From the IMG/VR virus record IMGVR_UViG_3300042863_000707, positions 1 to 36,124 of that record: a stretch of 36,124 nt of DNA; one strand, 5' to 3'. Below the pieces are notes generated by a model. It was not told the origin of the DNA. It did no database searches and worked only from the letters and a program-made list of their open reading frames with translations. The translations under genes were made by a program, and so were the position numbers. This DNA comes from a virus. Position 1 is the first letter of the stretch, and each line of letters opens with the position of its first letter. Positions 5,242-35,784 of this stretch are shown here, piece after piece.

Positions 5242-8200
5242 TTAGAAAGGTTTCTCTATTGCTAAACAGATTTCACCCCTTTCTATTATTAGTCTTTTCA
5301 TATCTGAAAAACTTATATAGGCATGTCCTGAAACTCCCCAAGCTTTCCCCCAACTATTTTTAATTCTAAATTGTTTTGTGATGGTGTTCACTCCATTAAT
5401 AACATAAGCGTGTCCTCCCGCAATATGTCCACTTAAACGAATTAAACCATTTTTATTAGGAAAAAACATATTATAATACCAATTGGTTCCAACAACGACT
5501 GGTCCAACATTTAACACAGTATTAATTAGTGTGTTAATATCAAACGCCCATAAGTATGATGATATTTTACCTGAACTCATTAGATATTTTGCACCACCTC
5601 TAACAGACGTACCGTTATACCTTTCACCCGGCCATTCATCAACCTTTTGAGCTTCACGATAAATCAACGATGGTTGGATTATTGGTAAAGCTCCTCTATG
5701 AGTTATTGGCCCATCACAAATCCAATGTGCCCAAGCATAACCAACACATTGCGGTGTGTTGCCTTGATTACCCCACCAAACATTACCATCCCATTCTTTT
5801 TTAGTTATAGTTGTTTTAGGTATTGTTAATTTATCTTGAATTAAATATTTGTTATCTCTTTTGTCCTCAATAAATATTCTACCTAATTTTTGCTCATTAA
5901 ATAAAGTTAGATTATTTGGGTCACAATCACAATTGATATCAACAACTGTTACAGTTCCTCCACCATTAAGTTTAATTACATTGATAGCACATTTATAAGT
6001 TATGGTAACATATAATGGTACATCAATAACTTCAACAGTATTATCACAATATAAAATTTGATACGTTGAACCAGTTCCAGGTCCAAATCCACTATATAAT
6101 TGGAATGTTTTGCAACAAGGTGAACAATCTCCAATACCGGTAGTCGTAAGAAAAAGTGGACCCTCACTACCACTACCGCCACCATATAGACAACTACCTA
6201 TAAGACTTGGTAGTGCCACCCATTGAGCCATTGACCCAATTGGTGTTGGACTATTTATAGGAAGATATGCGAGTGGGTCAGGTAATGGATAATATGTGGT
6301 CATATCCTCTAAAATCCAATAATTATTTATATTATCCCAAGAAATCCTCATTAATAAGGTGGGGGGTGCGAGAGCAAAATAAGTAAAATAATATGATGAT
6401 TTACCATTAATCTGAGGTGAAGGATTTATATTTGATGGTAATACAATTGTACCACTACAAGTCGTTCCTTCATCAATAAAACGAATACACTCTCCAGGTG
6501 TATAAACCGTAGGCGTAGGCGTAGGTGTTGGTGTTGAAGTTGGTGTTGAAGTTGGGGGCCAGCTTACCGATGGTTGTTTTGTTGGTGTAGGCGTTGGCGA
6601 ATATGTGGTTGTAGTTGTTGTTGGTGAATATGTGGTTGTAGTTGTTGTTGGTGAATATGTGGTTGTAGTTGTTGTTGTTAAATTTGAGGTTGTAGTTGTT
6701 GTTGTTAAATTTGCCGTGGTGGTTGTTGTGGTTGTCTCATCGGATATTTTGTAGGTAAAGTCGTTAGGTAAACAAACCGATGTTGAGCAGTCAGGACAAT
6801 CAGGATTAAACATTCTGAAAATATTTTTTAATAAATTAAAGTTGTGTTTTACCTCAGGTGCCGATAATGGGGTAACATACATTCTAAATTGTGAAATAGC
6901 ACCATCAAAAGTTCCCGCAAAATTTTGCTCAATTAATATATTAGTTTTTAATCCACTAAATGTTGTTCCTGATAAATCATTAATTGGGAAATTTTCAGGG
7001 TCTTGTATATATGGTCCGTAAGGTTGTGTTATTGATGAAAAAGTTAAATTTTCTCTAAGTCCTTGAGTACCCCCACCCCACGATATATTAAACGGAACCC
7101 CAACTTGTTTTTCTTTGTCAGTATCTAATCCTCTTGGGATGATTTCCTCAAAATTTTCTATAGTATGGAATAACTTACCATTAACATAAATTTTAAGTCT
7201 TCCGTTTCTGTATAATTTATCAATTAACCATTTTTCATTTAACCTGACCAGTTCGATTTGTTCTGATGGTTTACAGTCAATTTGTGTGTATGGTACAGTT
7301 ATTAATGACGATGCATTATTGGCTAGTGACTCTAAATAAAGTTTTTCAGTTATATCACCAAGTCCTCCTCGATACCATAAATCGCAAGTATCTAACCATG
7401 TATATCTTTCCCATACCGCGTCTACTTGGAACCAATGTTCCTCATCTAACCACGCAGGATTCTCTAATAAACATGTAGGGTAAATTGGCGGCGTACAATA
7501 ATCAACAATAGTGTGTCCTGTAGTGTAAGTAATTCCACTTGTTTCACAAGAGCCTGTAGTAACACAATCTCCTGTAAATTTTAACATTCTAACACCAATA
7601 CCAGGGTTTTTTGGGTCGCCACATAATCTAAAAGATAACGCGTTTGACATAGAATCATATATTGGGTTTGTCTCACAAGTATTTTCAATTGATGTAAATC
7701 CTGTATTACAATTATAACAAGTCGTGGTTGGTGTACAAACATCACATGATGGAGAGCAAACAGGTGGTAGTTCACAATCAGGTATTGGGGTTGGCGTTGG
7801 TGAAGGTGTTGGGGTTGGTTCAATAACCGTACTACATACGTGTGTTTGACACTCCCATCCACAAGTTTCGCATGGGTCTAAATTACAATCACAACCACAC
7901 GTAATTTTTTTTTGTGGGTCTCCCTTACAACTACCACAACCATAATTAACGTGAGGGTCATGGATATTATTCACTGACCTAGGTGGATAAACAAAAATAC
8001 ATCTACTATCCGTAATTGTTCTATTACAACATGCACATGTTTGTAGTTCAGTTAAACCTGATGTAACTCTATTATAACCTGAAAAACATAATGGACTACC
8101 ACTTGCATGGTGATAAAATTTATTTTCAGCTCTAGTCCCAAAATAAAAAAAAGTATTTTTATTATTTGGATAAATTTCATTAAGAGTTGTTTCATTTGGT

Positions 8201-8889
8201 AATGGAGTGTGTTCGTTGAATAATCTTGGTTTTAATACCATCTCAACCGACCACCCTTTATTCATTCTTTCAGGGAAAACTTCATAATCAAACCCAAATA
8301 ACTTATAAAATCCTTGATAAAACCCACCGTATAATTCGTGGTACCTACCTTCAAAAGGGCTTGATTTACTAACAACTTCGTATAACACGGTTTTATTGAA
8401 TCCTGAAAATCTTACATTAGGTGACATAGTGTGACCTGTAACTTGGTGTAACTTAAGTCTTCGGTCATAGTACATTCTATTAAATTTCAAATAATCAGAG
8501 TATAATCCTTTAGTAAATGTTATCGTTTCACCGGTCATTTGGTCGACTAATCCATTATCAATACCTGTTAACCCAATATCACATGATGTTGATGATGAAT
8601 AACAAGTTAAATCTTCATTATTTGGGTTGTAATAATTTTGAGATACAAAAATATTATTATTATTGTATTGTTTATACAAAAGTGTTTGATTTTGAACACT
8701 TAAAGGATTGTTAATGTCAAAATAAATTGGGAGTCTGTCTCCATATGTTTGAGCAATCAAATATGGTGAAAAAACAACTTCTTGATTGTAGTCTTGTTCA
8801 TCTGAGGTCAAAGACATATCACTAGAGTCTAAATTAAGTTTTAGAGACCAATTTGGACGATAATACTGATTTATATTTTGACTTGCCAT
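5242..8889 (-). CDS. Giant LamG-like tail/adhesin protein with C-terminal papain-family cysteine peptidase
   Basis: The protein has 1215 residues. Two halves of a concanavalin/LamG-like domain are suggested at about 205-270 (WSVEMVLKPRLF) and 560-690 (RLKIYVNGKLF, then FDGAISQFRMYVTPLS), split by a Cys-rich insert at about 276-405. A Thr/Pro-rich linker spans about 710-800, and a further Cys-containing domain follows. Residues about 1030-1215 form a papain-like (C1) peptidase with Gln1042, Cys1048 in QGNTPQCVGYAW, His1160 in GGHAYVING and Asn1178 in IKNSWGKAWG. The Gln-to-Cys spacing of six matches papain Q19-C25. The full catalytic set is therefore present. I infer a virion surface protein that may cleave host surface proteins or process itself. 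It is transcribed from the divergent promoter region at 8890-8939 and followed by a terminator. Confidence 0.9.
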   Translation of the reverse strand: MASQNINQYYRPNWSLKLNLDSSDMSLTSDEQDYNQEVVFSPYLIAQTYGDRLPIYFDINNPLSVQNQTLLYKQYNNNNIFVSQNYYNPNNEDLTCYSSSTSCDIGLTGIDNGLVDQMTGETITFTKGLYSDYLKFNRMYYDRRLKLHQVTGHTMSPNVRFSGFNKTVLYEVVSKSSPFEGRYHELYGGFYQGFYKLFGFDYEVFPERMNKGWSVEMVLKPRLFNEHTPLPNETTLNEIYPNNKNTFFYFGTRAENKFYHHASGSPLCFSGYNRVTSGLTELQTCACCNRTITDSRCIFVYPPRSVNNIHDPHVNYGCGSCKGDPQKKITCGCDCNLDPCETCGWECQTHVCSTVIEPTPTPSPTPTPIPDCELPPVCSPSCDVCTPTTTCYNCNTGFTSIENTCETNPIYDSMSNALSFRLCGDPKNPGIGVRMLKFTGDCVTTGSCETSGITYTTGHTIVDYCTPPIYPTCLLENPAWLDEEHWFQVDAVWERYTWLDTCDLWYRGGLGDITEKLYLESLANNASSLITVPYTQIDCKPSEQIELVRLNEKWLIDKLYRNGRLKIYVNGKLFHTIENFEEIIPRGLDTDKEKQVGVPFNISWGGGTQGLRENLTFSSITQPYGPYIQDPENFPINDLSGTTFSGLKTNILIEQNFAGTFDGAISQFRMYVTPLSAPEVKHNFNLLKNIFRMFNPDCPDCSTSVCLPNDFTYKISDETTTTTTTANLTTTTTTSNLTTTTTTTYSPTTTTTTYSPTTTTTTYSPTPTPTKQPSVSWPPTSTPTSTPTPTPTPTVYTPGECIRFIDEGTTCSGTIVLPSNINPSPQINGKSSYYFTYFALAPPTLLMRISWDNINNYWILEDMTTYYPLPDPLAYLPINSPTPIGSMAQWVALPSLIGSCLYGGGSGSEGPLFLTTTGIGDCSPCCKTFQLYSGFGPGTGSTYQILYCDNTVEVIDVPLYVTITYKCAINVIKLNGGGTVTVVDINCDCDPNNLTLFNEQKLGRIFIEDKRDNKYLIQDKLTIPKTTITKKEWDGNVWWGNQGNTPQCVGYAWAHWICDGPITHRGALPIIQPSLIYREAQKVDEWPGERYNGTSVRGGAKYLMSSGKISSYLWAFDINTLINTVLNVGPVVVGTNWYYNMFFPNKNGLIRLSGHIAGGHAYVINGVNTITKQFRIKNSWGKAWGVSGHAYISFSDMKRLIIERGEICLAIEKPF
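6596..6676 (-). repeat. Three tandem 27-base repeats (YSPTTTTTT)
   Basis: Three 27-base units start at 6596, 6623 and 6650 and differ at one base. Each encodes the nine residues YSPTTTTTT in the Thr-rich linker of the papain-fusion protein. Two degenerate units follow to about 6735, in which the Tyr-Ser-Pro is replaced by Asn-Leu. Confidence 0.9.
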
Positions 8890-8917: not shown

Positions 8918-8927
8918 AGTATTTATT
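8918..8927 (+). promoter_or_regulatory. Right half of a divergent candidate promoter
   Basis: AGTATTTATT on the plus strand lies 12 bases before the ATG at 8940 and mirrors the element at 8900-8908. It could start the long plus-strand block. Confidence 0.5.
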
Positions 8928-8939
8928 GAAAAATATGTT

Positions 8940-9776
8940 ATGATAAATTTTAACAAAGAATACTACAGTAATAATTATTACTTCTTTCTAAAAGATAGGG
9001 GTAACCAAATCTCCTTATACTATTCTATTGCTAACACTTTAAGTGAATCTAGAAAAAAAGACAAAAAAATAGACTTCGATAAAAAAGATGCAAAAAAAGT
9101 TAAAGATGTTGTATATAATGTTTTAAACTCAAAAGAAAAACAAACAACAAAAGATATTGAGGATAAATTAAAAGATGTAAAAAAATCTTCAGGTGAGATT
9201 GGAGAGTTAGTTGATTCTGATGGAACAATGTTAAGTTCAAAAATTCCTTTAATAAATTTAACCCTTTCACCAAGAAAAACAATGGACCAGACTGTTGTTA
9301 TGGCTAGAACAACTAATGACCCTGTAACAAGAGGTTACCGTGTTTATTATGGTGAGAGTGAAGACAAAAAAGAAAATATTGTTTCGGAAGTTGATTATTC
9401 AGAAGCCTTTGGGTATGTTGAGACCGAAGGAAAAGATTTTAGACAAACGGTAAATATATTGAAAAAAATGGGTGTTGAAAATCCGGTACAAAGAGCGAAA
9501 GAATTTGGTAAATTACCTAAAGCTAAAAAAGTTAATGGCAAATTAAAACAAAGACTTTCTGAAAAAGATAGTATTGAAGAACAACAAAAAGAAAAAATGA
9601 TTAAAATGGTTGAGGATATCTTAACTAAGAAATCTAAAGATAGTTCAGACGTTGTAAAACGTGATGAAAGCGTTAGTAAGATATTAGTTAAAAATTTACA
9701 ATCAATTAAAAAATTAGCGGATAAAGAAGGTATCAGTATTTCTAAATTAATTAACATATTAAAATCAAATGAATAA
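8940..9776 (+). CDS. Hypothetical lysine-rich protein, first gene of the plus-strand block
   Basis: This 278-residue protein is highly charged. It has Lys/Asp-rich helical N-terminal (about 38-90) and C-terminal (about 200-278) regions around a more beta-like middle that contains MARTTNDPVTRGYRVYYGE. I see no signal peptide, membrane segment or catalytic motif and do not recognise the family. Its last 8 bases overlap the next gene, and both belong to a compact run of five genes ending at the terminator at 11543. A virion or head/tail assembly role is possible from context but unproven. The ATG at 8940 follows a candidate promoter element. An ATG at 8934 leads immediately to a stop. Confidence 0.7.
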   Translation: MINFNKEYYSNNYYFFLKDRGNQISLYYSIANTLSESRKKDKKIDFDKKDAKKVKDVVYNVLNSKEKQTTKDIEDKLKDVKKSSGEIGELVDSDGTMLSSKIPLINLTLSPRKTMDQTVVMARTTNDPVTRGYRVYYGESEDKKENIVSEVDYSEAFGYVETEGKDFRQTVNILKKMGVENPVQRAKEFGKLPKAKKVNGKLKQRLSEKDSIEEQQKEKMIKMVEDILTKKSKDSSDVVKRDESVSKILVKNLQSIKKLADKEGISISKLINILKSNE

Positions 9777-10239
9777 GGACTTATACGGAAATAAATTTTC
9801 CCTACCTGAGGAGGTTGTAAGTTATTTACAACAGTGCCATGATGCCGCAGGAGGTGCTGACGAAAGTGTTGAGGGTTATAAGAGAAACAAAGAACTAAGA
9901 GATAGTCGTGAGGTTACATATCAACAATTAAAACGAATGAAAAATTGGTTTGATAAGTTTGAGGGTGATGAAAATGATTTATCTTATATATTGAATGGTG
10001 GCCATTATGTTAAGAATTGGGTTCACAATACTTTAACTTCAATGAGAGATAATGTATACAATACTAAAAAGAATAAATCTGAGGTTTTGCCTAATCAATT
10101 TATTCAGCCACATGAAAAGAATGACATGACAACAATTAATAGACCAAGTAAAAGTCATAAAGCAACTGTTGATAAATATGATACCGCTATTATGGAGAAT
10201 CTAATCAGAATAAACAATTTAATTAAAAAAATAATATAA
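9769..10239 (+). CDS. Hypothetical protein, about 156 residues
   Basis: The sequence MNKDLYGNKFSLPEEVVSYL opens a mostly helical protein containing RMKNWFDKFEG and ILNGGHYVKNWVHNTL segments and a helical tail ending INNLIKKII. It overlaps the upstream gene by 8 bases and is followed after one base by the next ATG, which argues for a genuine co-translated gene. I do not recognise the family. Phage genes of this size next to structural genes are often virion or assembly components, but nothing in the sequence fixes a function. Confidence 0.65.
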   Translation: MNKDLYGNKFSLPEEVVSYLQQCHDAAGGADESVEGYKRNKELRDSREVTYQQLKRMKNWFDKFEGDENDLSYILNGGHYVKNWVHNTLTSMRDNVYNTKKNKSEVLPNQFIQPHEKNDMTTINRPSKSHKATVDKYDTAIMENLIRINNLIKKII

Positions 10240-10240
10240 T

Positions 10241-10534
10241 ATGGCGACAATAGACCCAATTGTGTTTGAACAACCTAAAAATGACTTGTCATCAATCGCT
10301 GACATGGAAAGAGCAAAGTTATTCCCAAAGAATGATTATAAACCAACAAATCAATATTCGGCAGTTAATCCTGACGCTATCGCTGATGGCGATGCTCAAG
10401 GTAAAGGTACTGGAGGATTTTTAGATGTTTATAATCAAGGTGCGGGAGCAATTCAAGACATCTTAGAACGAAAGGCTGAGATAGTTATTAATGAATTTAA
10501 ACCTAACTCACCATACACTACACCAAGTGCGTAA
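10241..10534 (+). CDS. Small hypothetical protein, 97 residues
   Basis: The protein MATIDPIVFEQPKNDLSSIAD has a disordered, Asn/Pro-rich N-terminal half, then a Gly-rich GKGTGGFLDVYNQGAGAIQD stretch and a short helix. It shares one base with the following gene (TAATG), a typical coupled junction. No known domain is recognised. Composition suggests a small structural or scaffolding-type protein, with low certainty. Confidence 0.6.
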   Translation: MATIDPIVFEQPKNDLSSIADMERAKLFPKNDYKPTNQYSAVNPDAIADGDAQGKGTGGFLDVYNQGAGAIQDILERKAEIVINEFKPNSPYTTPSA

Positions 10535-10917
10535 TGAAACTTTACAATACAGTTAAATCCCTTATTTTAGAAGTAGCATCGATTGATTCAATCGTTGATG
10601 CTATAAAAAAAAGAGATAAGATAGTAATTTACTATGATGGTGATGAACCAGGTGGTAGAGGGTTAAGAGAAATTGAACCTGTTTGTCTTGGGTATAGTAA
10701 GTCAGATAATCCTGTTTTAAGAGCTTGGGATAATGAAGGGTCTTCTCATACCGCATATAAGGGAGAACAACCTTTACCAGGGTGGAGATTATTCAGAGTT
10801 GATAAAATATTATCATTTAAACCAACGGGAGAAAAATTTGAATCGTCTAAACCAGGGTATAATCCATCAGGAGACAAAAGCATGAATAGAATTATTATTA
10901 ACGCAGTGTTTAATTAA
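10534..10917 (+). CDS. WYL-domain-like protein with possible capsid-targeting N-terminus
   Basis: The 127-residue product contains a pattern typical of WYL-type Sm-like beta-barrels: KKRDKIVIYYDG (residues 25-36), REIEPVCLGYSK (45-56), a PVLRAW strand (60-65) and GWRLFRVDKILSF (83-95). WYL domains usually sense ligands in bacterial regulators and defence systems, but here no DNA-binding domain is attached. The first 13 residues, MKLYNTVKSLILE, form a helix ending L-x-E before VAS. This resembles the prohead-protease-cleaved targeting peptide of T4 internal head proteins. If that is right, a WYL-like protein is packaged in the head and delivered with the DNA. The fold call is moderate and the packaging idea is inference. 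Confidence 0.6.
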   Translation: MKLYNTVKSLILEVASIDSIVDAIKKRDKIVIYYDGDEPGGRGLREIEPVCLGYSKSDNPVLRAWDNEGSSHTAYKGEQPLPGWRLFRVDKILSFKPTGEKFESSKPGYNPSGDKSMNRIIINAVFN

Positions 10918-24820: not shown

Positions 24821-26400
24821 TGAAAATAGACGAATCTAACATACATCAAATTATATTTCCGGGAATTGTTTATGATAACGAAGACCCGATGATGTTAGGT
24901 AGACTTAGAGTCATACCTGAAACTCAAACATATACCGATATTATAGCATCAGTTCCCAATTGGAATGAGGAGATTGATAAATGGACATCAAAAGACCCAT
25001 TAATCTTCTTACCATTATTACCTTTTTATTTTAGCCAAGTACCAAAAAAAAATGAGTACGTACACATTATATACCAAAATAAAAAATTTAACTTTCAAAA
25101 CCAATTCTATATTCAAGGTCCGTTTTCATCACCAATGACAACACCTTTTGAATATTACCAAGGTTCTAAGAAATTTTTAGCGTCTGGTGATAGAATTAAA
25201 CAAGGTATCTCAATTAAAAATAGTGAAGGACAATATCGTAACAAAGATAGTTATGGCGTATTTCCTGAACCAGGCGATAACGCATTATTAGGCCGTGGTT
25301 CTGCCGATGTTGTTGTTAAAGAAAATGAGGTTTTAATTAGAGCGGGTAAAACAAAAGTATTAAGTACAACCCAAATACCTGTTGGTAATACCTTGAGGTC
25401 ATTCTTACAACTTTCAAATTTTACTCAACAAAAACTTTTATTACCTCAAGAAACCCAAACTAGATTAATTGAAAATGTTAAGGTGGTTAAAAAAATAATA
25501 ATTTGGGATATTGAAAATTTAGAAAATACTCAGAATGTCTTTAATGGGTCTGTTGGTTTATATAATGTAATTCCTAGTCAACGAGTTAATAGTAAAAATT
25601 TTAAATCCGATACTATTGTTAATTTAAGCGTTGGTACTGATTATAGTGGTCCTATTGAAGAGGTTAAATTTACCGCCACAAATTTTAACGATTCATTAAG
25701 TTTAATTAATAAATTCTGTGATGGAGTTTTTAAAAATTTTATTGACTTACCTAATTATATTGTTAATAATCAATTACGTAATATACCCCAAGACCAAATA
25801 TTCCCTTTTGTAGTTACACCATCAAAATTAACATATCAAAAAGGTACTAAATTCTCGCCATCACAAGTTGTAAATGATGTTGCGGAATTAACTAATTATG
25901 TTAAGTTTTATAGTAAAATTAAATTAAATATGGGATTAATTAATAGTGGGTGGTTTTTAGTTTGGGAAAACAAAAATGGTACTGCTGTTATTGGCCCTCA
26001 AGGGGATATTAAGATTGAAAAAGTTACACCATCCGAGTTTGTTCCTTCAGATGTATCCTATGGTATTTTAGGGTCCCAAAAAATTTATTTACTATCACAA
26101 GACTCTACAGGACCTAAAGGTAAAATTAGTTTAAGTCAAACTTTATATGGTATACCACAAGATAAATTTGTTGGTGACGAAAGTAGTATTTATAGTAAAA
26201 CATATCCAACAACAAGGGGGGATGAGTTAATGTCACTACTTAGAAAAATATTTTCATTTGTTACTGGACACGTACATCCTGTTGCCACGGCACCACCTAT
26301 TCCTGTCGCTGCAGGTAATGGACAAACCGCAGCAGAAATTAATGCAATTCTTGCTGACGCAGAAAATACCATCTTAAATCAAAATATCCGAATTAATTGA
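24820..26400 (+). CDS. Baseplate hub/spike protein with gp5-like OB-fold domain
   Basis: The N-terminus (residues about 11-95) carries [19 protein letters not shown], then [28 protein letters not shown]. This is the pattern of the OB-fold at the start of T4 gp5-type hub and VgrG-type spike proteins (G-x-V-x-x-x-x-D-P-x-x-x-G-R-x-R-V, then P.GE/NE-V-h-V). The C-terminal end contains a [15 protein letters not shown] stretch also seen near the ends of such proteins. No lysozyme domain is visible, unlike T4 gp5, and there is no obvious beta-helix. The 526-residue length fits a hub protein. It probably lies at the tail tip, where it would meet the host surface. Confidence 0.75.
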
Positions 26401-26408
26401 TATTTATA
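26399..26408 (+). promoter_or_regulatory. Candidate phage promoter element GATATTTATA
   Basis: An exact GATATTTATA overlaps the hub protein stop codon (TGA 26398-26400) and ends 14 bases before the ATG at 26423. It is one of three exact copies of this 10-mer in intergenic positions. Confidence 0.5.
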
Positions 26409-28609: not shown

Positions 28610-29092
28610 ATGAAACAGATAGTTAAACTTAATGAAACACACTTAACTAAACTTATTAAAAAAGTATTAAGTGAACAAGAATCTCAAAGATACATGTTTT
28701 TTAGTAATTTAGAACAAATGAGAAGACAATGTGATTTGTTATTAGATTTAGACCATGATATGGTTGAGTCTATTTTAGAAAATGGACATGACTGGGCTCA
28801 AGACCATATTGCAGAATCTAAAAATAACTTAGACCAAGTATTTGATTTCTTAATGAATGAAACCAAAAAAGACGGTATGGAATTATCTATGTCTATTGAT
28901 GATAAAGATATGGCCATGATGGAGGGTCGTAAAAAAACAGGTACACCCCTTTGTGCAAGAGGTATTGCATCTGCAAAGGCTACATATGACGTATATCCAA
29001 GTGCTTATGCTAATGGTCACGCTATTCAAGTATGTAAAGGAAAAATGAAAGGTCTTGATGGTGAAACACATTGTTCGGGAGCTTATTGTTAA
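28610..29092 (+). CDS. Candidate internal head protein with capsid-targeting-like propeptide
   Basis: The first 22 residues (MKQIVKLNETHLTKLIKKVL ending in SE) form a Lys-rich amphipathic helix ending L-S-E before QES. This fits the T4 prohead-protease rule (hydrophobic, x, Glu) and recalls T4 internal-protein propeptides. Residues about 25-100 are helical and acidic. The C-terminal part has YDVYPSAYANGHAIQVCKGK (about 124-143) with flanking Cys, a pattern I have seen in unnamed phage proteins but cannot tie to a function. The protein has 160 residues. The same propeptide motif recurs inside the minus-strand gene at 29842. Packaging into the head is inference. Confidence 0.6.
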   Translation: MKQIVKLNETHLTKLIKKVLSEQESQRYMFFSNLEQMRRQCDLLLDLDHDMVESILENGHDWAQDHIAESKNNLDQVFDFLMNETKKDGMELSMSIDDKDMAMMEGRKKTGTPLCARGIASAKATYDVYPSAYANGHAIQVCKGKMKGLDGETHCSGAYC

Positions 29093-29133
29093 AAAAAAAT
29101 ATATAATTAATTTTTTTATTTAAATAATATCAT

Positions 29134-29141
29134 TATATTTG
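29134..29141 (+). promoter_or_regulatory. Bacteroidota-type promoter -7 element TATATTTG
   Basis: TATATTTG matches the Bacteroidota -7 consensus TAnnTTTG, 23 bases before the ATG at 29165. No clear TTTG -33 element is visible about 20 bases upstream. Host RNA polymerase could therefore read this small gene early; the match is only moderate. Confidence 0.45.
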
Positions 29142-29164
29142 TAAATAAATACTAATATAAGATT

Positions 29165-29560
29165 ATGAAACAAATTATTCACAAATTAAAACGATTAATC
29201 CAAAAACAATATATTAAATTCTATCGGTCTTCAACCCCAAAAATTACTACATACGAAAAAGATTGTGTTTCTATTTGTGAAAAATTAATAAAAAAAAATG
29301 AAACTGTTTTATTGTTAACCCCAATCTCAAACAAACGTTATATTAAAAACGAAGAAGACCAAATTTTCGTAATTTTAGAAAATTATAGCGTAAAAATAAT
29401 CAACCACGTTTATTCGTACACTGTAATATTAGGAGATAATTCGTGGAATTCTGTAGTTACTTTATTTGATTCAGAAGTTGAGTCAAGACGTAATAAATTT
29501 GAAAAAGAAATTACTTCTAATATCAAATATTCTATTAAAAAAATTTTAGAAAAAATATAA
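29165..29560 (+). CDS. Hypothetical basic protein, 131 residues
   Basis: The protein starts MKQIIHKLKRLIQKQYIKFY, a strongly basic helix, and ends with another Lys-rich helix (KFEKEITSNIKYSIKKILEK). The middle is beta-like (KNETVLLLTPISN, then VILGDNSWNSVVTLFD). There is no L-x-E cleavage motif after the first helix, so I do not group it with the propeptide-bearing proteins. A host-type promoter element is located just upstream. No family is recognised; a host-interaction role is possible but not supported beyond location. Confidence 0.6.
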   Translation: MKQIIHKLKRLIQKQYIKFYRSSTPKITTYEKDCVSICEKLIKKNETVLLLTPISNKRYIKNEEDQIFVILENYSVKIINHVYSYTVILGDNSWNSVVTLFDSEVESRRNKFEKEITSNIKYSIKKILEKI

Positions 29561-29584
29561 CAAAAACCTAATAAACTAAATCAT

Positions 29585-29845
29585 ATGAAAAAATTATTTA
29601 TCGCACTAGCATTGTTCACTTCTTGTAATTTGTTTTCACAAACAATTACAAATACGGTTAATCCAAAAACTGATACATTAGTTTATATTGGTTATGACAT
29701 CAATCAGTTTAGTGCAGAATATGCTCAAGAAATGGCCACTTGGTCTAATGAAAAAATTGATTGGTTTAATAAAACTTTTTGTTACACACGAGGAAACTTT
29801 ACAATCCCCGACAAACCTATCCAACCTTACCAAAAAGAAGATTAA
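29585..29845 (+). CDS. Small secreted or periplasmic protein with Bacteroidota-type signal peptide
   Basis: This 86-residue protein begins MKKLFIALALFTSCNLFSQT. It has a short basic n-region, a hydrophobic core and the LFSQ ending that is typical of flavobacterial signal peptides cleaved just before Gln. A Cys at position 14 makes a lipoprotein possible, but the surrounding FTSC is a poor lipobox. The mature part is short and acidic (KTDTLVYIGYDINQFSAEYA) with Asn/Asp residues. It is probably exported by the host and could act in lysis timing or superinfection exclusion. It ends convergently with the minus-strand gene, sharing TTAA. Confidence 0.65.
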   Translation: MKKLFIALALFTSCNLFSQTITNTVNPKTDTLVYIGYDINQFSAEYAQEMATWSNEKIDWFNKTFCYTRGNFTIPDKPIQPYQKED

Positions 29846-30663
29846 AGTTTATTTAGGTAATCGGCCCACTCTTTCTCTGTACCAGCGTCAATTGAACAGA
29901 AATGATTAACGCTAATTCTATTACTAATCAAATAAATTTTTTGATTCGGGTTCGCCATTTTACTTTTTTCTAAGAAATCTTTATTCATCTTAGCCGCAGG
30001 AACAACATCTAAGATTACTGTGGAAGGTTCATATGATTCTCTTGGTATGGTTGGGGATGGTGTTAAAAATATTCTTTTAAGTCCACCACCATTTAATCCT
30101 CCGTACATATCTTCTTCAGAATCTAAAGTTAACCCACTTTCTCTAAATGAATTGTTTTTACTTTGACAAAAAAGATTAAGTACCTTTCCTTTAGGTGCGG
30201 TTTGTTCTGTTAAAACTCGTTTAACAATTTTTATTAAATCGTTTTCGTTAAGTTTAATTACTTTTTTTTCACCAACAACCACAGTATCTTTTTTTATTTC
30301 AATCCATTCTTTTAATGTTGTGATTGGCACAATACTTTTTTTACCACCAGGAGTTTGATTAATATTATTCCCATCTTCATCACTAAATGTTGACATAGGG
30401 TTATTTTTAATATAGTTAGAAATCTTTTTTACTTTATTCTCCATCTTTTTAATTTTTTTTTTAGGTGTACTCATCTTACCGCCATAACTATCGTATTCCA
30501 ACTCAGCATCAATATACTTTGATACGGGTGTTGTAAATGGTTGTAATGACTCTTTACTAAATTCCCTAACACCAGGTTGCAAAGGAGAAACATAGGACCC
30601 TCTACCACCACTACTATCAGAAGTTGCCTCAAGCAATATTTTCTTTATTAATTGATTTAGCAT
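29842..30663 (-). CDS. Candidate internal head protein with two propeptide-like sites (possible fusion)
   Basis: This protein has 273 residues. The N-terminus MLNQLIKKILLE, then ATSDSSGG, mirrors the site in the major capsid protein here (FLINE before ATSDGSSG). A second Lys-rich helix, VIKLNENDLIKIVKRVLTE (135-153), followed by QTAP, closely resembles the start of the 28610 protein. This suggests two ancestral head-packaged proteins joined in one frame, with the protease able to release two parts. The C-terminal part (about 154-273) has Cys and beta-strand segments (KVLNLFCQSK, KIYLISNRISVNHFC), with no known family. The regions around 66-88 are very Lys-rich. Location in the head is inferred. 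Confidence 0.6.
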   Translation of the reverse strand: MLNQLIKKILLEATSDSSGGRGSYVSPLQPGVREFSKESLQPFTTPVSKYIDAELEYDSYGGKMSTPKKKIKKMENKVKKISNYIKNNPMSTFSDEDGNNINQTPGGKKSIVPITTLKEWIEIKKDTVVVGEKKVIKLNENDLIKIVKRVLTEQTAPKGKVLNLFCQSKNNSFRESGLTLDSEEDMYGGLNGGGLKRIFLTPSPTIPRESYEPSTVILDVVPAAKMNKDFLEKSKMANPNQKIYLISNRISVNHFCSIDAGTEKEWADYLNKL

Positions 30664-30680
30664 AGAATTTTTAATATACT

Positions 30681-30689
30681 TATAAATAC
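30681..30689 (-). promoter_or_regulatory. Candidate promoter element in divergent junction (GTATTTATA)
   Basis: On the minus strand GTATTTATA ends 17 bases before the ATG at 30663. Read on the plus strand the same site is TATAAATA (30681-30688), the T4 late-promoter core, 23 bases before the ATG at 30712. Its orientation therefore cannot be decided from this site alone. Confidence 0.4.
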
Positions 30690-30711
30690 ATCAAAAAAAG
30701 ATATTATTACA

Positions 30712-30945
30712 ATGGAAGAACAACAATTATTTGGAAAACTATTCGACACAATACCACTACTAACTGAAGACCATTTAGATGTGTTACTACAGTCTATGGA
30801 TAAAGACAACGCATCATACATATTAATACAGGCAGTTAAGAAAGCGTACCACGATGGTGTGTATTCTTTAGGTGAGTCTGAAGTTGTGTCAAGGGCAATT
30901 AGAGTTATGTCAAAACAAGTAATTAAAGACGAAACAAAAGATTAA
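30712..30945 (+). CDS. Small conserved-type phage protein, 77 residues
   Basis: The helical protein MEEQQLFGKLFDTIPLLTED continues with SMDKDNASYILIQAVKKAYH and ends with a basic/acidic tail (SKQVIKDETKD). It stands alone on the plus strand between two minus-strand genes. Its stop overlaps the convergent neighbour's stop as TTAA. The compact acidic first half and short helices do not identify a family. A TATAAATA box lies upstream, so it may be late-expressed. Confidence 0.6.
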   Translation: MEEQQLFGKLFDTIPLLTEDHLDVLLQSMDKDNASYILIQAVKKAYHDGVYSLGESEVVSRAIRVMSKQVIKDETKD

Positions 30946-31478
30946 GCATCAGTTGATGGGTCACCACCCCCTGATGTCTGTGACGACGAATTATTTGTTT
31001 TTGCCACAACAGGTGCTCCAACAGGTGCTCCAACAGGTGCTCCAACAGGTGCTCCAACAGGTGCAACATTTGTTGTTACCCCTAAAGCAGCAATTATCGC
31101 AGCAATAGTTTTAGGACCTATTTTACCATCAACCACCAACCCTGATTGTTTATTAGTATTTAACCAAGTTTGAATATCTTTAGCCGAGTAGTTTGTTTTA
31201 CCAGGAGTCGCAGGTGTTAATGCAGATTTATCTTGCGGATTTTTCGCTTGTAAATAATCAGGAGCACCATCACCATCTGAATCAGCATTAAATCCAGAAA
31301 GACCTGGACCTGCGGGTGTACCAGGAGTCGCAGTTGTTGCCGTAGTAGGGACAGGGATTTCCCCATCTTCATATGGACCCGCCTCTGAAATAATTTTTTT
31401 AATAGTTTTTTCTCTAATACTTTCATGTAAATTTAAAATCCTATTTCTTTCTTCAGTATTTAAATTAAATCTATTCAT
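30942..31478 (-). CDS. Peptidoglycan-binding-domain protein with propeptide-like N-terminus
   Basis: This 178-residue protein starts with a helix ending TIKKIISE (25-32), followed by AGPYEDGE, a candidate prohead-protease site like that of T4 internal proteins. A Thr/Pro/Ala linker and a DSDGDGAPD calcium-loop-like motif (66-74) follow. Then comes a PG_binding_1-like domain (about 98-133) with DIQTWLN and LVVDGKIGPKTIAAI, which fits the D-G-x-x-G-p-x-T signature. The tail is a GAPV repeat and a Ser/Thr/Asp-rich end. If packaged in the head, it could be released on the host wall at infection. It could instead be a plain wall-binding protein. Confidence 0.7.
   Translation of the reverse strand: MNRFNLNTEERNRILNLHESIREKTIKKIISEAGPYEDGEIPVPTTATTATPGTPAGPGLSGFNADSDGDGAPDYLQAKNPQDKSALTPATPGKTNYSAKDIQTWLNTNKQSGLVVDGKIGPKTIAAIIAALGVTTNVAPVGAPVGAPVGAPVGAPVVAKTNNSSSQTSGGGDPSTDA
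31009..31064 (-). repeat. Four perfect 12-base tandem repeats encoding GAPV
   Basis: The unit acaggtgctcca occurs perfectly at 31009, 31021, 31033 and 31045, with a partial fifth copy to about 31064. It encodes (GAPV)n in the tail of the peptidoglycan-binding protein. Perfect identity indicates recent expansion by slippage. Confidence 0.9.
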
Positions 31479-31492
31479 AATATTTCTTTATT

Positions 31493-31502
31493 AATAAATA
31501 TC
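31493..31502 (-). promoter_or_regulatory. Candidate phage promoter element GATATTTATT
   Basis: On the minus strand GATATTTATT ends 14 bases before the ATG at 31478, the same distance as the plus-strand element before 26423. Confidence 0.45.
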
Positions 31503-31598: not shown

Positions 31599-32285
31599 CT
31601 ATTCCGTTTTATTTGATTTACGAATATTCTCAATACCCCACATTGGTTGTAGGTTATCTAAGGACCAACATCTCATAAACTCTTCATCACCCATTTCAGA
31701 GATATTAAAATAAGTTATAGGTAATTTATGGTCAACATGCCATTCACCATAATTGTCCCACGTCATTGTCTCCTTGAATTGTAATTCTAAATGTGATATT
31801 AATTGTTCAGGAGTGTATTGTAATATGTCAAAGTAATGTCCGTATTTATCCACATTACTTTCTTTTAATACGGTGTAGATAGCAGTTCTGAAATTACTGA
31901 TTAGTTTATAGAGGGGGTCTCTCGCTTTACGATTTCTTTCGTAATCACGTTTTATTTGACGAATTTTATCAACATTATTTTCTCGGTATTCTTTAAGATA
32001 TTTAGTTAAATGTTCTTTATTTTGTTCTGCCCATTTTTTGTGATTTTTCTTTAGACGTTCTTTTGTTTCAGGTTTAGAAAAATATTTCTTTGTTGCAACT
32101 TCTCTACCGCCAATAAATCGTCTTCCTGACGGTCCCATAATAATACCATTTTCTTTTAATATTCTTAAAATTGTTGGTTTACTTATGCCTATTTTTTCTG
32201 AAATTGTTTGAGAACCTAAAAGTTCTTCATTATACATTTTAAGTATTCTATTTAATTCTTCTTCTGTAGGTATAAATTTTTTCAT
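31599..32285 (-). CDS. HNH homing-type endonuclease with N-terminal HTH
   Basis: This 228-residue free-standing endonuclease has a helix-turn-helix-like start (SQTISEKIGISKPTILRILK, about 25-44). A long basic helical stretch (about 70-125) may wrap DNA. The HNH core near the C-terminus has WHVDHKLPI (182-190; VDH pair) and SLDNLQPMWGIENIRKSNK (208-226), the usual LDNLQP...N...K signature. Such enzymes spread by cutting related genomes that lack them. It lies directly downstream of the major capsid gene, past that gene's terminator, a typical insertion spot in T4-like phages. No intron is visible around it. Confidence 0.9.
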   Translation of the reverse strand: MKKFIPTEEELNRILKMYNEELLGSQTISEKIGISKPTILRILKENGIIMGPSGRRFIGGREVATKKYFSKPETKERLKKNHKKWAEQNKEHLTKYLKEYRENNVDKIRQIKRDYERNRKARDPLYKLISNFRTAIYTVLKESNVDKYGHYFDILQYTPEQLISHLELQFKETMTWDNYGEWHVDHKLPITYFNISEMGDEEFMRCWSLDNLQPMWGIENIRKSNKTE

Positions 32286-32391: not shown

Positions 32392-34242
32392 TTATCTCAA
32401 TTCTCTTAAATCGAATGTACGAACACCATCAACAGTAATACGTCCATAAAAACGGTTGTTGACCATCTTTTTTGCGTATCTCGTCATTATTCCTTTTATC
32501 GGAGTAAAGTTGAACGGATTGTACATTGTAGGTGTTAATTGTAGAGGTACATACGGTGCGTAGATGTAACCTGTGTCTAACAATGATGTTCCTTTGTGTC
32601 CTACTAACACTGTGTTAGCTGGGAAGTAAGGGTCACGGTAAACTTGGTAACGTCCTGCAAGAGTACCAACTCTTTCAATACCCATGTTATACTGGTCTTG
32701 CTCAGGAGATGCGTTAGATACGTGGAAGTACTCTAAATCATCAAAAATAGCTGAAATCTCAGAAGAAACTACAATCCAGTTAGCTCCACCTCTTAATGTA
32801 GATTTGTGGATTTGTGCTGACAATTGGTTAATTGCAGTAATTAATGTTTGATTCCAATCTTTTTGAGTATAAGATGTAGTTTGAGAAATTCTTCTCCATC
32901 CGTTGTAATCCCAACGTAAGTTCCATGCTGCTCCTTTACGTAAATCTCTTAAGATTTCACGGTCAATTTCAGCCGCAACTTGTTCAGACAATAAAGCTGT
33001 TAATTCAGCTTCAGCATCGATGTTGTGGAATGCAGCAACGTCTTGAGCTAACTCAGGAGACCATTGTGCTCTTAATTTTCTTTCTGTAACAGATACAGTA
33101 ACTGAATCTAAGTCGAAAGAAACCTCACCTATTTTGTCTTCAAATTCTAATTCTTCGTAACGTCTGAACGCTGCGTAGAATGATGTTCCTGAAGCCGCTT
33201 CAGTAATAGTAGTACCTGTGTAACCATCTAAAGATGTTGAATCACAATCAGCACATACTGGACAAGATAAATCAACTTCTAAGTAGATACATCCGTTAGC
33301 ATCACATACGTTTTTAAACGAACCACCGTTACCAGTTGATGCCCAAGTAGTTTGAGTAGTGCTACCGTAAGAAACGATACCTTTACCATATTGTTGAGTA
33401 ACAACTCTGAACAATAAAGCTCCTGTTGATACTGGACATGGTGTTGTTGCAGAAACATCTAAACCTGCACCTGTGAAGATAATTAAATCAGATAAGAAAG
33501 ATTCTGTATCCATTTCATTACCATCAGGTCCGATTAATTTACCTGCTCCTGTGTCAGCAAAACCACACATTTTAACGATAACTTTTCTTGTGTTACCTGA
33601 AGGGATAGTTGCAGCACCTGCAGTATCACCTGAAATATTAGCATCAACTAATAAACCGTTAGTCCATTTTTGGATTGAGGTTGTAGCAGTGATTGCTGAC
33701 CAACGACCTTTTGAATAATCGAATAAACCTGCTGGGTCTAAACCTGGTTCAGTTCCTTCGTAGAATAAGTCATAAAGGTTTTTACTTACCGCTCCAGCTC
33801 CTGTGTAACCTGCATTTTGAGATGTTGGTCCGTTTGGTGCTCCTAGTGGTGCGTAGTGGTCTCCTGAAGATACATCACTCCATTGAGTGTTAGTACCACC
33901 TGAATAACCTTGAATTTTAGGTACAAAGTAGAATAATTTACCGATTGGTAAGTTCATAGCTTGTACTGATACGATGTCATTCGCTAATAATTTAGAAAAT
34001 ACACGTCTTACGATAGGGAATACAACAGTTTCAAATGAACCTGAAGACCCGTCAGACGTTGCTTCGTTAATTAAGAAAGACGCTTGGTTCTCATATAATT
34101 GAGCTACGTTTTCTTTTAGGTGACCTTTAAGGCCTTCTAGGAATCCTAATTTATCCCATTTGTTAATTGTATCTTCTTTGATAACTTTAAGGTGTTTTAA
34201 CCCGATGTTACCAACAAGACCTGATTCTAATAATGCTCCCAT
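32392..34242 (-). CDS. 23: Major capsid protein, T4 gp23-like
   Basis: This 616-residue protein has an N-terminal propeptide ending SFLINE (55-60) before ATSD, matching the T4 gp23 site (FLTE before AE). FPIVRRVFSKLLANDIVSVQ and AMNLPIGKLFYFVPK then mirror the first conserved region of gp23 (RRA...IAFDICGVQPM). VSVTERKLRAQWSPELAQDV, then HNIDAEAELTALLSEQ and EIDREIL (around 385-430), match the gp23 core. The end carries NPFNFTPIKGIMTRYAKK and NNRFYGRITV. It forms the HK97-fold hexamers of the head after protease cleavage. An insertion with several Cys (NVCDANGC, SCPVCADC, about 308-335) is unusual. Its place after the scaffold gene matches T4 order. Confidence 0.95.
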   Translation of the reverse strand: MGALLESGLVGNIGLKHLKVIKEDTINKWDKLGFLEGLKGHLKENVAQLYENQASFLINEATSDGSSGSFETVVFPIVRRVFSKLLANDIVSVQAMNLPIGKLFYFVPKIQGYSGGTNTQWSDVSSGDHYAPLGAPNGPTSQNAGYTGAGAVSKNLYDLFYEGTEPGLDPAGLFDYSKGRWSAITATTSIQKWTNGLLVDANISGDTAGAATIPSGNTRKVIVKMCGFADTGAGKLIGPDGNEMDTESFLSDLIIFTGAGLDVSATTPCPVSTGALLFRVVTQQYGKGIVSYGSTTQTTWASTGNGGSFKNVCDANGCIYLEVDLSCPVCADCDSTSLDGYTGTTITEAASGTSFYAAFRRYEELEFEDKIGEVSFDLDSVTVSVTERKLRAQWSPELAQDVAAFHNIDAEAELTALLSEQVAAEIDREILRDLRKGAAWNLRWDYNGWRRISQTTSYTQKDWNQTLITAINQLSAQIHKSTLRGGANWIVVSSEISAIFDDLEYFHVSNASPEQDQYNMGIERVGTLAGRYQVYRDPYFPANTVLVGHKGTSLLDTGYIYAPYVPLQLTPTMYNPFNFTPIKGIMTRYAKKMVNNRFYGRITVDGVRTFDLRELR

Positions 34243-34280: not shown

Positions 34281-35753
34281 TTATTTTAATTTTGACATTA
34301 AATCTTTCATTCTTAAGAACTGAGGATTTTCATATGTTTTAGACTCAATCAAATTAGCCGATGACCCTGTCGATGGAGAACTTTGAATAGTTCTTTCAAT
34401 TGACTCATTCATTGGTTGATTTGTCTTAGACGAAAGGTTATCTTTTAATGTCTTATACAAGTTTTTAGATTCTTTAATAGTTTCAACACTATCAAAACGT
34501 CTTAAGATATTAATCTTTTCTTGTTTTGATGTTGAATGTTCTGTGAACAAACGTGTAGCGTATGCTAAGTTTGAGTTGAACACTGCAACTTCGTTTAATT
34601 TATTTCTAAAAATGTTAAGTGCTTTTCTGTACTCTTCATTTTTTTCTCTAAGAACTTGTAATTCTCTGTTATCAATACTTTCTTTTTGGATTGCCGTGTT
34701 AAATTTTGAATGAGCTCTTGGTTTTGGTAAACCGCCAGTTCTAAAATTAGAACCACTTCCTAAAGTTCTTGATGCTTCTTTGGTTTCAACCTTTTTAACA
34801 GTTTTCATATCACCGTCAAGATTTTCACCCTCTTTATATTCAAATTTTGCTTTACCAGTACCCATGGTTTTATTAACTGTTCTTTTTACAGTTTTAAAAC
34901 CACCTTCTTGGTTAGGTTTGTTTGAATATATTTTTTTCTTATTTGGATTTCCAATTCCGACACCTTTAGGTTTGATTGACATTTTCTTAGATTCCATTAC
35001 AGGTTCATCATCGTCGTATAGACCCATGTCTTCTTCGCCTTCTTGTTCGTCAAATTCAATTTCATAAACAATTTCTTCACTGTCCATTTCTTCTTCTTCT
35101 TCGTCAAATTCTATTTCATAAACAATTTCTTCACTGTCCATTTTAGGTTCGTCCATTCCAAAATCCATTTCTTCTTCTTCGTTAGTGTTAAATACTTTAT
35201 CGATGATGCTATTAATGTCGTCTTCGTCTTCGTCTTCGTCTTCCATGCCAAAATCTGACATATCATCCATTTCGAACATTTCTGTTTCATCAACGTATTC
35301 GTCACCTTCTCCGACAATCATATACTCTTTTTCAGAATCTTTAAGATTGATATTACCTGAATTATCTTTGGTAACCACGATATTATCTTCAGGACCCATT
35401 AAGCTGAATACACGTAAGATTTCATCCTCGTCATCAACGTCAGTAAGGTCAATAGTTTCGTCGTCATCCATAGAATCTTCATCATCCATAGAATCTTCAT
35501 CATCCATATCTAAATTATCCATATCCAAGTCCAACCCTTCTTCGTCAGACATATCGTCTTCCATTTCAGGTTCGTCCATTTCAATGTCTGTTTCAATCTC
35601 ATCTTCTTGTTCAGTCAGAGACTCTTTTACTAGTTCTTTGATTTCTTGCTTCATAGTTGAAGCAAGTATTCCTTTTGCATTTTCAGCAACTGCATCCTCT
35701 AAATTTTTCATTTGGATGATTGCTTCTTCAACTAAAGATTTTTCTTTTGCCAT
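34281..35753 (-). CDS. 22: Prohead core/scaffold protein, gp22-like
   Basis: The 490-residue protein sits just upstream of the capsid gene as gp22 does in T4. It is extremely acidic at about 50-250 (runs of Asp/Glu), then basic (about 255-350). A coiled-coil helical C-terminal region (about 365-460) contains LREKNEEYRKALNIFRNKLN, then NSNLAYATRLFTEHS, a pattern I associate with scaffold proteins of T4-like phages. Candidate protease sites such as VKESLTE (42-48) before QEDE fit degradation of the core before packaging. It probably scaffolds head assembly inside the prohead. The acidic repeats include duplicated blocks. Evidence for the family is synteny and composition, with moderate direct sequence support. 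Confidence 0.75.
   Translation of the reverse strand: MAKEKSLVEEAIIQMKNLEDAVAENAKGILASTMKQEIKELVKESLTEQEDEIETDIEMDEPEMEDDMSDEEGLDLDMDNLDMDDEDSMDDEDSMDDDETIDLTDVDDEDEILRVFSLMGPEDNIVVTKDNSGNINLKDSEKEYMIVGEGDEYVDETEMFEMDDMSDFGMEDEDEDEDDINSIIDKVFNTNEEEEMDFGMDEPKMDSEEIVYEIEFDEEEEEMDSEEIVYEIEFDEQEGEEDMGLYDDDEPVMESKKMSIKPKGVGIGNPNKKKIYSNKPNQEGGFKTVKRTVNKTMGTGKAKFEYKEGENLDGDMKTVKKVETKEASRTLGSGSNFRTGGLPKPRAHSKFNTAIQKESIDNRELQVLREKNEEYRKALNIFRNKLNEVAVFNSNLAYATRLFTEHSTSKQEKINILRRFDSVETIKESKNLYKTLKDNLSSKTNQPMNESIERTIQSSPSTGSSANLIESKTYENPQFLRMKDLMSKLK
35048..35141 (-). repeat. Duplicated 54-base acidic block in the scaffold gene
   Basis: A 40-base segment at 35048-35087 recurs at 35102-35141 with one a/t difference and a 54-base period. 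It encodes DSEEIVYEIEFDE twice. Nearby 35219-35241 is a GAA/GAC-type six-base repeat (EDEDEDED), and about 35469-35505 holds two 18-base units (DSMDDE). Confidence 0.85.
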
Positions 35754-35774: not shown

Positions 35775-35784
35775 TATAAATATC
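35775..35784 (-). promoter_or_regulatory. Candidate phage promoter element GATATTTATA (scaffold/capsid unit)
   Basis: On the minus strand an exact GATATTTATA ends 21 bases before the scaffold ATG at 35753. It would drive the scaffold and capsid genes together. Confidence 0.5.

Follow-up and report, generated by a model that had tools for sequence, protein, structure and literature searches.

Why do four proteins encoded on one phage genome fragment, three of them close to the major capsid gene, begin with a short basic helix that ends in the same kind of tripeptide? The fragment (hereafter the window) is a stretch of 36,124 bases from the IMG/VR virus record IMGVR_UViG_3300042863_000707, and the proteins, named here after the lowest coordinate of their genes, are 28610, 29842, 30942 and 10534 (Table 1). 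A first-pass annotation had read their N-termini as T4-like capsid-targeting propeptides, and their sequences confirm that all four are basic helices of 12-32 residues ending in [LI]-x-E. On sequence comparison, it is likely that these tags are indeed removable propeptides of the T4 type, cut by a gp21-type protease and borne by a large set of head-borne cargo proteins. For 28610, 29842 and 30942 this view is strongly supported by sequence, for 10534 moderately. One argument of the annotation, namely the ATSD that follows both LINE in the major capsid protein gp23 and LLE in 29842, does not carry the case: both junctions are present as described, but the residue behind the glutamate varies between families (T, Q, E or N in the 28610 family, V or I in the 10534 family, A in 78 of 93 members of the 29842 family), and this identity is thus the weaker part of the evidence. 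As we infer it, the basic amphipathic helix would dock a protein to the scaffold core while the prohead grows, a gp21-like S77 protease would cut after [LIVM]-x-E and free the mature protein inside the head, and some or all of the packaged proteins would be ejected into the host together with the DNA, where they may act as effectors.

The motif search suggested by the first-pass annotation was run on related phages, and the tag is found throughout. Using the tag core [ILVM]-K-x-h-h-x-E on two related contigs of 296 kb (G007) and 273 kb (G024), with genes called greedily from ATG starts alone in 20-kb pieces and genes cut at piece ends dropped, the core occurs within the first 26 residues of 13/360 genes versus 6/2487 interior windows in G007 (odds ratio 15.5, p 2e-8) and of 13/308 genes versus 8/2283 interior windows in G024 (odds ratio 12.5, p 6e-8). 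With 40-residue windows, the counts are 14/360 versus 6/1668 and 14/308 versus 7/1523, respectively. In an early set of loci, 208 of 2690 distinct proteins carry the core within their first 48 residues and fall into 39 clusters of mature sequence, some of them likely chance members. The best defined form, the 22-residue type A tag MKKIIKLTESDLxxIVKRVIxE (23 rows), yields a profile that 15 of the 16 large contigs match, up to 13 times per contig and with E values down to 3e-14. Over all loci, 133 occurrences were counted in 132 of 4643 distinct open reading frames, 104 of them N-terminal, 23 internal and 6 C-terminal, although some of the internal ones may be N-terminal tags whose upstream start was called too early (e.g., tag ends at residues 32, 38 and 64). 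The sequences of at least 30 residues behind type A tags form 71 unrelated clusters, and when 89 tagged proteins (71 selected as type A) are aligned, a readable consensus emerges in the tag alone. Type A is accompanied by a type B of 11-14 residues and by others, which likewise precede many unrelated proteins. When 668 genes are scanned along their first 60 residues, [LIV]xE ends peak at residues 7 (38 genes), 9 (34), 13 (27), 15 (24) and 22 (24); the baseline is 11.1, and all remaining positions reach 22 at most. The peak at residue 7 is due to another portable start, MKIIITE/[SND]QYK (predicted cuts are marked by a slash), on many genes of loci L302-L330 (contigs G007 and G024), and most type A copies hold two L/I-x-E sites, at residues 9 and 22.

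The end of the tag is conserved within families whose leaders otherwise differ. In IMG/VR, at least 600 candidate stretches encode a relative of 28610, and the best 80 were kept. Of 95 family members, 90 have a leader of six or more residues, and [LIVM]xE stands at the junction column in 83 of these 90, the other seven having VLNE/Q displaced by two in the alignment. Type A leaders (22 residues) and type B leaders (13-14 residues) occur in alternation on this single mature family, and among 44 thinned members no leader column but E22 is invariant. Similarly, [LIVM]xE marks the junction in 49 of 49 distinct relatives of 10534, and LINE/A is found in all 113 gp23 relatives (132 rows) whose N-terminus is present; the gp23 junction also takes the position of SFLTE/A in the T4 gp23 sequence. 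The start of the first module of 29842 has an [LIVM]xE no more than two residues away in 93 of 94 relatives, which together show 70 distinct leaders; at random positions of the same proteins, it is found in 391 of 4700 cases (8.3%). All four distinct relatives of 30942 that were listed keep the junction, three as ISE and one as ILE, and one relative, at locus L183, retains IISE/ while the linker behind it is gone. As the relatives are not independent of each other, probabilities derived from such junction counts, and from the terminal helices described below, are overstated. Over all type A tags, [LIVM]xE is present at the tag end in 99 of 104 N-terminal, 23 of 23 internal and 4 of 6 C-terminal copies; the two C-terminal exceptions end in VLSSK and VLVN. 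A structural model of 28610 (predicted local distance difference test score, pLDDT, 73; 73-75 for residues 1-20) places a helix at residues 9-22 that ends at the cut and is followed by a loop; a fold search with it gave no match in the PDB.

Protein 29842 contains a second, internal tag of type A that had been overlooked in the first-pass annotation. Judged from its sequence, it reads as a polyprotein consisting of a removable leader, a first module, an internal tag and an exchangeable cargo. In 20 of 39 related loci, the similarity to 29842 extends up to residue 154/157 alone, i.e., to the internal tag, these loci being mostly copies of two architectures: a form of 159 amino acids, in which the cargo is absent, and a form of 481 amino acids, in which it is replaced by a sequence with a sub-threshold OmpA match. 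Conversely, the 29842 cargo is a stand-alone gene with its own ...PLL[LM]E/QP leader in three loci, and in L163 and L065 this gene directly adjoins the other half. Another relative (L004, 13674-14681, + strand) carries in its C-terminal half a HELKH motif (HExxH) as in zinc peptidases, with no Pfam match. Among 60 distinct tails of 29842 relatives, nine have no helix, 40 end in a terminal helix and 11 have a helix with cargo behind it. The terminal xE is missing in 17 of the 40 terminal helices and in none of the 11 cargo-bearing ones (p 0.009, kinship ignored; the 11 were counted by reading, not by script). This pattern fits a division of labor in which the helix would serve docking and the glutamate release.

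A protein search revealed no Peptidase_S77 within the window. Since the window is a fragment, the protease was also sought in relatives and on a longer contig that is 100% identical over the last 1342 bases of the window. Here, the gp21-like protease that the annotation had expected elsewhere in the genome is present, its gene starting 18 bases past the window end. The encoded protein matches the PHROG head maturation protease (E 2.2e-42), and its motifs SELNHP and GISSRG resemble GELNHP and GVSSRG of T4 gp21. Near its own N-terminus it carries SILVE/YDAG, which is compatible with the same cut rule. S77 proteins are further encoded in 33 of 35 and 9 of 10 related contigs, and the order of S77 protease, gp22-position gene and gp23 is the same as in T4.

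In T4, the internal proteins IPI-IPIII, gp24 and Alt, which are cut by gp21, likewise possess a short N-terminal leader ending in L/I-x-E, and one kind of leader precedes unrelated mature proteins. The T4 sequences read MKTYQEFIAE/A for IPII and IPIII and MAKINELLRE/S for gp24, with the cuts at their published places. For the IPIII leader, residues 4 and 7 were reported to serve targeting, residues 8 and 10 processing (PMC9026906), which correspond to P7 and P4 and to P3 and P1, respectively, counted back from the cut. The T4 leaders of IPII, IPIII and gp24 share with the tags described here hydrophobic residues at P7, P4 and P3 together with glutamate at P1: all three hydrophobic positions are occupied accordingly in 26 of 26 distinct type A tags, while in the 10534 family P4 and P3 are hydrophobic in 49 of 49 members and P7 is partly T or A. 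Expressed as the pattern [ILVMFY]..[ILVMF][ILV].E, this register occurs in the first 26 residues of 19/241 T4 genes versus 28/1296 interior windows; restricted to the first 20 residues, it is found in 14 T4 genes including IPII, IPIII, gp24 and Alt. The relatives of the window give 50/360 versus 77/2487 in G007 (about 11 genes expected) and 52/308 versus 70/2283 in G024 (about 9 expected). Flavobacterium phage immuto gives 24/213 versus 38/1318 and 300 kb of the 642-kb phage LR756502 25/426 versus 74/2387. In crAss001, which has no S77 match, P1=E is not enriched (3/97 versus 23/886). In the sequence features compared, the tags behave like T4 capsid targeting sequences, apart from the missing homology to the T4 leaders and a late expression for which support is indirect.

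Differences from known systems are evident as well. Unlike the MKTYQEFIAE leaders of T4, the present tags have a basic K-K/R core with no demonstrable homology to them, include a 22-residue form with two L/I-x-E sites, are also found internally and terminally, and occur on far more genes per genome; the tag is a portable label, more portable and more widely used than the T4 sequences. The cut motif of giant-phage heads is reportedly also S/A/G-x-E. In phiKZ and SPN3US, many head proteins are cut after x-x-E, with A-x-E as the motif in contrast to L/I/V-x-E here, by S77-type proteases (gp175 and gp245), and cargo is ejected (PMC5694885, PMC9026906). The N-terminal propeptides of SPN3US mostly exceed 100 residues (PMC5694885), compared with 7-32 residues here, and several cut sites per propeptide have been reported for T4, SPN3US and phiKZ (PMC5694885, PMC9026906). 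Among open-licence PMC papers, our literature search found neither a description of such tags nor virion proteomics of this phage group; the main text of a study on Baltic Flavobacterium phages contains no mention of mass spectrometry or immuto (PMC7077304). A profile search for the full-length type A tag in six named records gave no match, and a 23-residue consensus tag had no tblastn match in phage records, perhaps because the query is short. An FNE-type leader in LR756502 looked promising at one locus and was dismissed, as it is not enriched there (14/426 versus 67/2387 in 300 kb). Two side observations concern these named phages. In immuto (MW353175.1), three proteins start with MEN(T)FDLKKFLVE/N[KR]LT (L331, 1803-2318; L333, 3806-4354 and 18632-18931), and in LR756502.1 (L395) a homologue of 28610, whose N-terminus is longer and of another kind, is encoded near a protein that, by eye, resembles 10534 in its middle part.

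Tagged genes also share an upstream element. The motif [AG]TATTTAT, scored up to 70 bases upstream in G007 and G024, precedes 23 of the 27 genes with type A tags and 8 of the 14 with type B, this tagged class being set by a pattern that admits a few looser starts. Because the motif was first noticed on tagged genes, the independent part of the result is the contrast between 16 of 19 structural genes and 2 of 14 replication or metabolism genes, labelled by similarity to selected immuto proteins; among unlabelled genes, 120 of 594 have it. [AG]TATTTAT is a candidate late-promoter motif of structural and tagged genes, and late expression of the tagged genes is only indirectly supported. In several genes of G007 and G024, only 12-15 bases separate the start of the motif from the ATG, a hint that 5' leaders may be very short or absent.

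Given this shared element, could the gene starts be shared for the sake of expression, i.e., translation initiation or promoter activity, and not for protein targeting? The same phages carry bS21, and two pairs of type A tags are near-identical as DNA (64/66 and 65/66). Most type A pairs, however, encode the same residues by different codons (in one example, 7 of 16 codons agree), tags are found internally and terminally as well, and leaders of differing length and sequence keep one protein-level junction, which makes this the least probable of the explanations considered and one we scarcely credit. Nearly as improbable is a product of chance and composition, in which AT-rich N-termini rich in K, I, L and E look alike and families share their starts by descent. 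It would account for the marginal enrichment in the window alone and for the other P1 residues that are enriched in places (both given below), but it is contradicted for type A by a 22-residue profile that precedes 71 unrelated clusters, and the [LIV]xE peaks above baseline and the lack of P1=E enrichment in crAss001 speak against it in general. More serious, if still unlikely, is the possibility that the helices serve as docking domains in some late assembly process (scaffold, tail, baseplate or contractile-injection-like tube loading) and are never removed by proteolysis. Removal would be unnecessary for the internal (23/133) and C-terminal (6/133) helices, peptidoglycan-related cargo domains would suit a tail too, and in immuto a core-bearing protein directly precedes a baseplate gene. 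Under permanent docking, on the other hand, one would expect neither a near-invariant junction glutamate behind several leader types, nor its coincidence with the L/I-x-E rule of the adjacent S77 protease, nor its loss where the helix has nothing behind it.

Several observations weigh against removable propeptides, or against individual members of the set. Of the 40 terminal helices that have nothing behind them, 23 retain the glutamate, as permanent docking would also allow, and [LIVM]xE is missing at the projected end of 5 of the 104 N-terminal type A tags. Within the window itself, 3 of 40 genes have the core motif among their first 26 residues, compared with 4 of 313 interior windows, a marginal enrichment (p 0.034; a second window-only value is p 0.041). 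P1 letters other than E are enriched as well (K 2.8-fold in G007, D 2.8-fold and Q 2.7-fold in G024, Q 6.2-fold in crAss001), and single loose matches to the register therefore prove little. Homology to the T4 leaders was considered and rejected: profile A1 finds only a 9-residue fragment in T4 (E 0.027), its weak partial matches being confined to T4 and LR756508; it has no match in immuto, Mel-JY01 and LR756502, three of the five named records bearing S77, and the lysine-containing core is absent from all 241 T4 genes. In the window, gp23, 28610 and 10534 do not have an [AG]TATTTAT of their own directly upstream. Finally, the helix predicted for residues 2-25 of 10534 continues through the cut, which makes 10534 the weakest of the four cases. 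Removable capsid-targeting propeptides nevertheless remain the reading that we favor.

Regarding the cargo, a Pfam scan of the 89 tagged proteins yielded 22 families at E ≤0.01, nearly all in one member each, with PG_binding_1 in three, VanY, SLT, OmpA and AmiA-like in one each, and mostly weak matches otherwise. The model of 10534 (pLDDT 81) has a WYL/Sm-like fold, and its top PDB matches in Foldseek are PafBC, CapW, BrxR and DriD (probability 1.00; best E 1.7e-3, none at or below 1e-3). WYL regulators of BREX and CBASS have been described (PMC9122601, PMC9122588), and an anti-defence role of a packaged WYL protein 10534 is speculation.

Table 1 Features of the window discussed in the text (cuts, marked by a slash, are predicted)
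Feature	Position	Strand	Remarks
Virus record IMGVR_UViG_3300042863_000707	36,124 bases		33% GC (guanine plus cytosine)
Tagged protein 1 (28610)	28610..29092	+	160 amino acids; all-helical family beside gp23
Type A tag of 28610	28610..28675	+	22 residues, MKQIVKLNETHLTKLIKKVLSE/Q; profile E 9.5e-12, the tag itself being one of the 23 profile rows
Tagged protein 2 (29842)	29842..30663	-	273 amino acids; start codon at 30663
Type B leader of 29842	30628..30663	-	MLNQLIKKILLE/ATSD
Internal type A tag of 29842	30205..30270	-	residues 132-153, EKKVIKLNENDLIKIVKRVLTE/Q, ending ...KLNENDLIKIVKRVLTE/Q; profile E 1.6e-10, not a profile row
Cargo behind internal tag of 29842	29845..30204	-	residues 154-273
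Tagged protein 3 (30942)	30942..31478	-	178 amino acids; start at 31478; PG_binding_3 E 0.0016, 19.1 bits (cut-off 24.6)
Leader of 30942	31383..31478	-	32 residues, MNRF...KTIKKIISE/AGPY (...ILNLHESIREKTIKKIISE/A)
Tagged protein 4 (10534)	10534..10917	+	127 amino acids; WYL/Sm-like fold; Pfam WYL 21.5 bits (cut-off 21.8)
Leader of 10534	10534..10572	+	13 residues, MKLYNTVKSLILE/V (.../VASI); least certain leader
Major capsid protein gp23	32392..34242	-	PF07068 E 5e-74; PHROG major head protein E 1.3e-67
gp23 propeptide	34063..34242	-	60 residues, ...ASFLINE/ATSD; predicted cut after residue 60
Acidic protein in gp22-scaffold position	34281..35753	-	next to gp23 on its upstream side, the same arrangement as in T4 and immuto
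[AG]TATTTAT upstream of 29842	30682..30689	-	
[AG]TATTTAT upstream of 30942	31494..31501	-	
[AG]TATTTAT upstream of gp22-position gene	35776..35783	-	
[AG]TATTTAT	8919-8926 and 26400-26407	+	

The acidic protein in gp22 position has no Pfam or PHROG match, and neither tRNA nor tmRNA genes were found in the window. An Endonuclease VII-like protein (31599-32285, - strand; PHROG 1035, E 9.5e-15) is encoded between gp23 and the tagged genes, and a protein of 1215 amino acids (5242-8889, - strand) has a papain-family peptidase end (PF00112 E 6e-5; phrog_16701 E 8e-51). The protein at 9769-10239 (+ strand) has a C-terminal ...NLIRINNLIKKII, which resembles a C-terminal tag helix without the cut residue. 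A long proline-rich open reading frame on the + strand of window positions 1-2561 is, by eye, probably the antisense of a minus-strand gene with collagen-like Gly-x-y repeats. A bS21 family match was obtained in 9 of 13 contigs searched, eight of them above the cut-off and two contigs of the window's own virus included; four of the 13 gave none. Based on these matches, about 33% GC and the large contigs, the phages very likely belong to the same group as the bS21-encoding freshwater Bacteroidetes phages of Chen et al. 2022 (PMC9723584), which are alike in having S77, gp22-position gene and gp23 near the bS21 gene, about 33% GC and contigs of up to 326 kb; the abstract and Results of that paper do not mention tags or propeptides. 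The clade consists of large freshwater phages, with Bacteroidetes as the probable hosts.

If the tag marks head cargo, lists of such cargo could be read from the DNA of uncultured freshwater phages, and the 71 type A clusters would represent candidate take-over and counter-defence proteins. Phage-carried proteins are normally learned from virion proteomics of cultured phages. A natural test of what capsid targeting requires would also be at hand, as the same cargo is found behind different leaders and the same helix either has the cut residue or lacks it. A more far-reaching idea, which we put forward tentatively and would not yet bet on, is an economy of head loading in which few portable, removable tags load about 40 proteins per genome, a figure taken from the excess of register-bearing gene starts in G007 and G024, polyproteins that are cut into several products inside the head included. 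Each infection would open with the delivery of a diverse cargo: wall-active proteins, a WYL-fold protein and many effectors. If this holds true, the WYL-fold protein might weaken defences under WYL control (e.g., CBASS or BREX), and proteins that phages inject could be recognized in metagenomes directly by the tag in their sequence.

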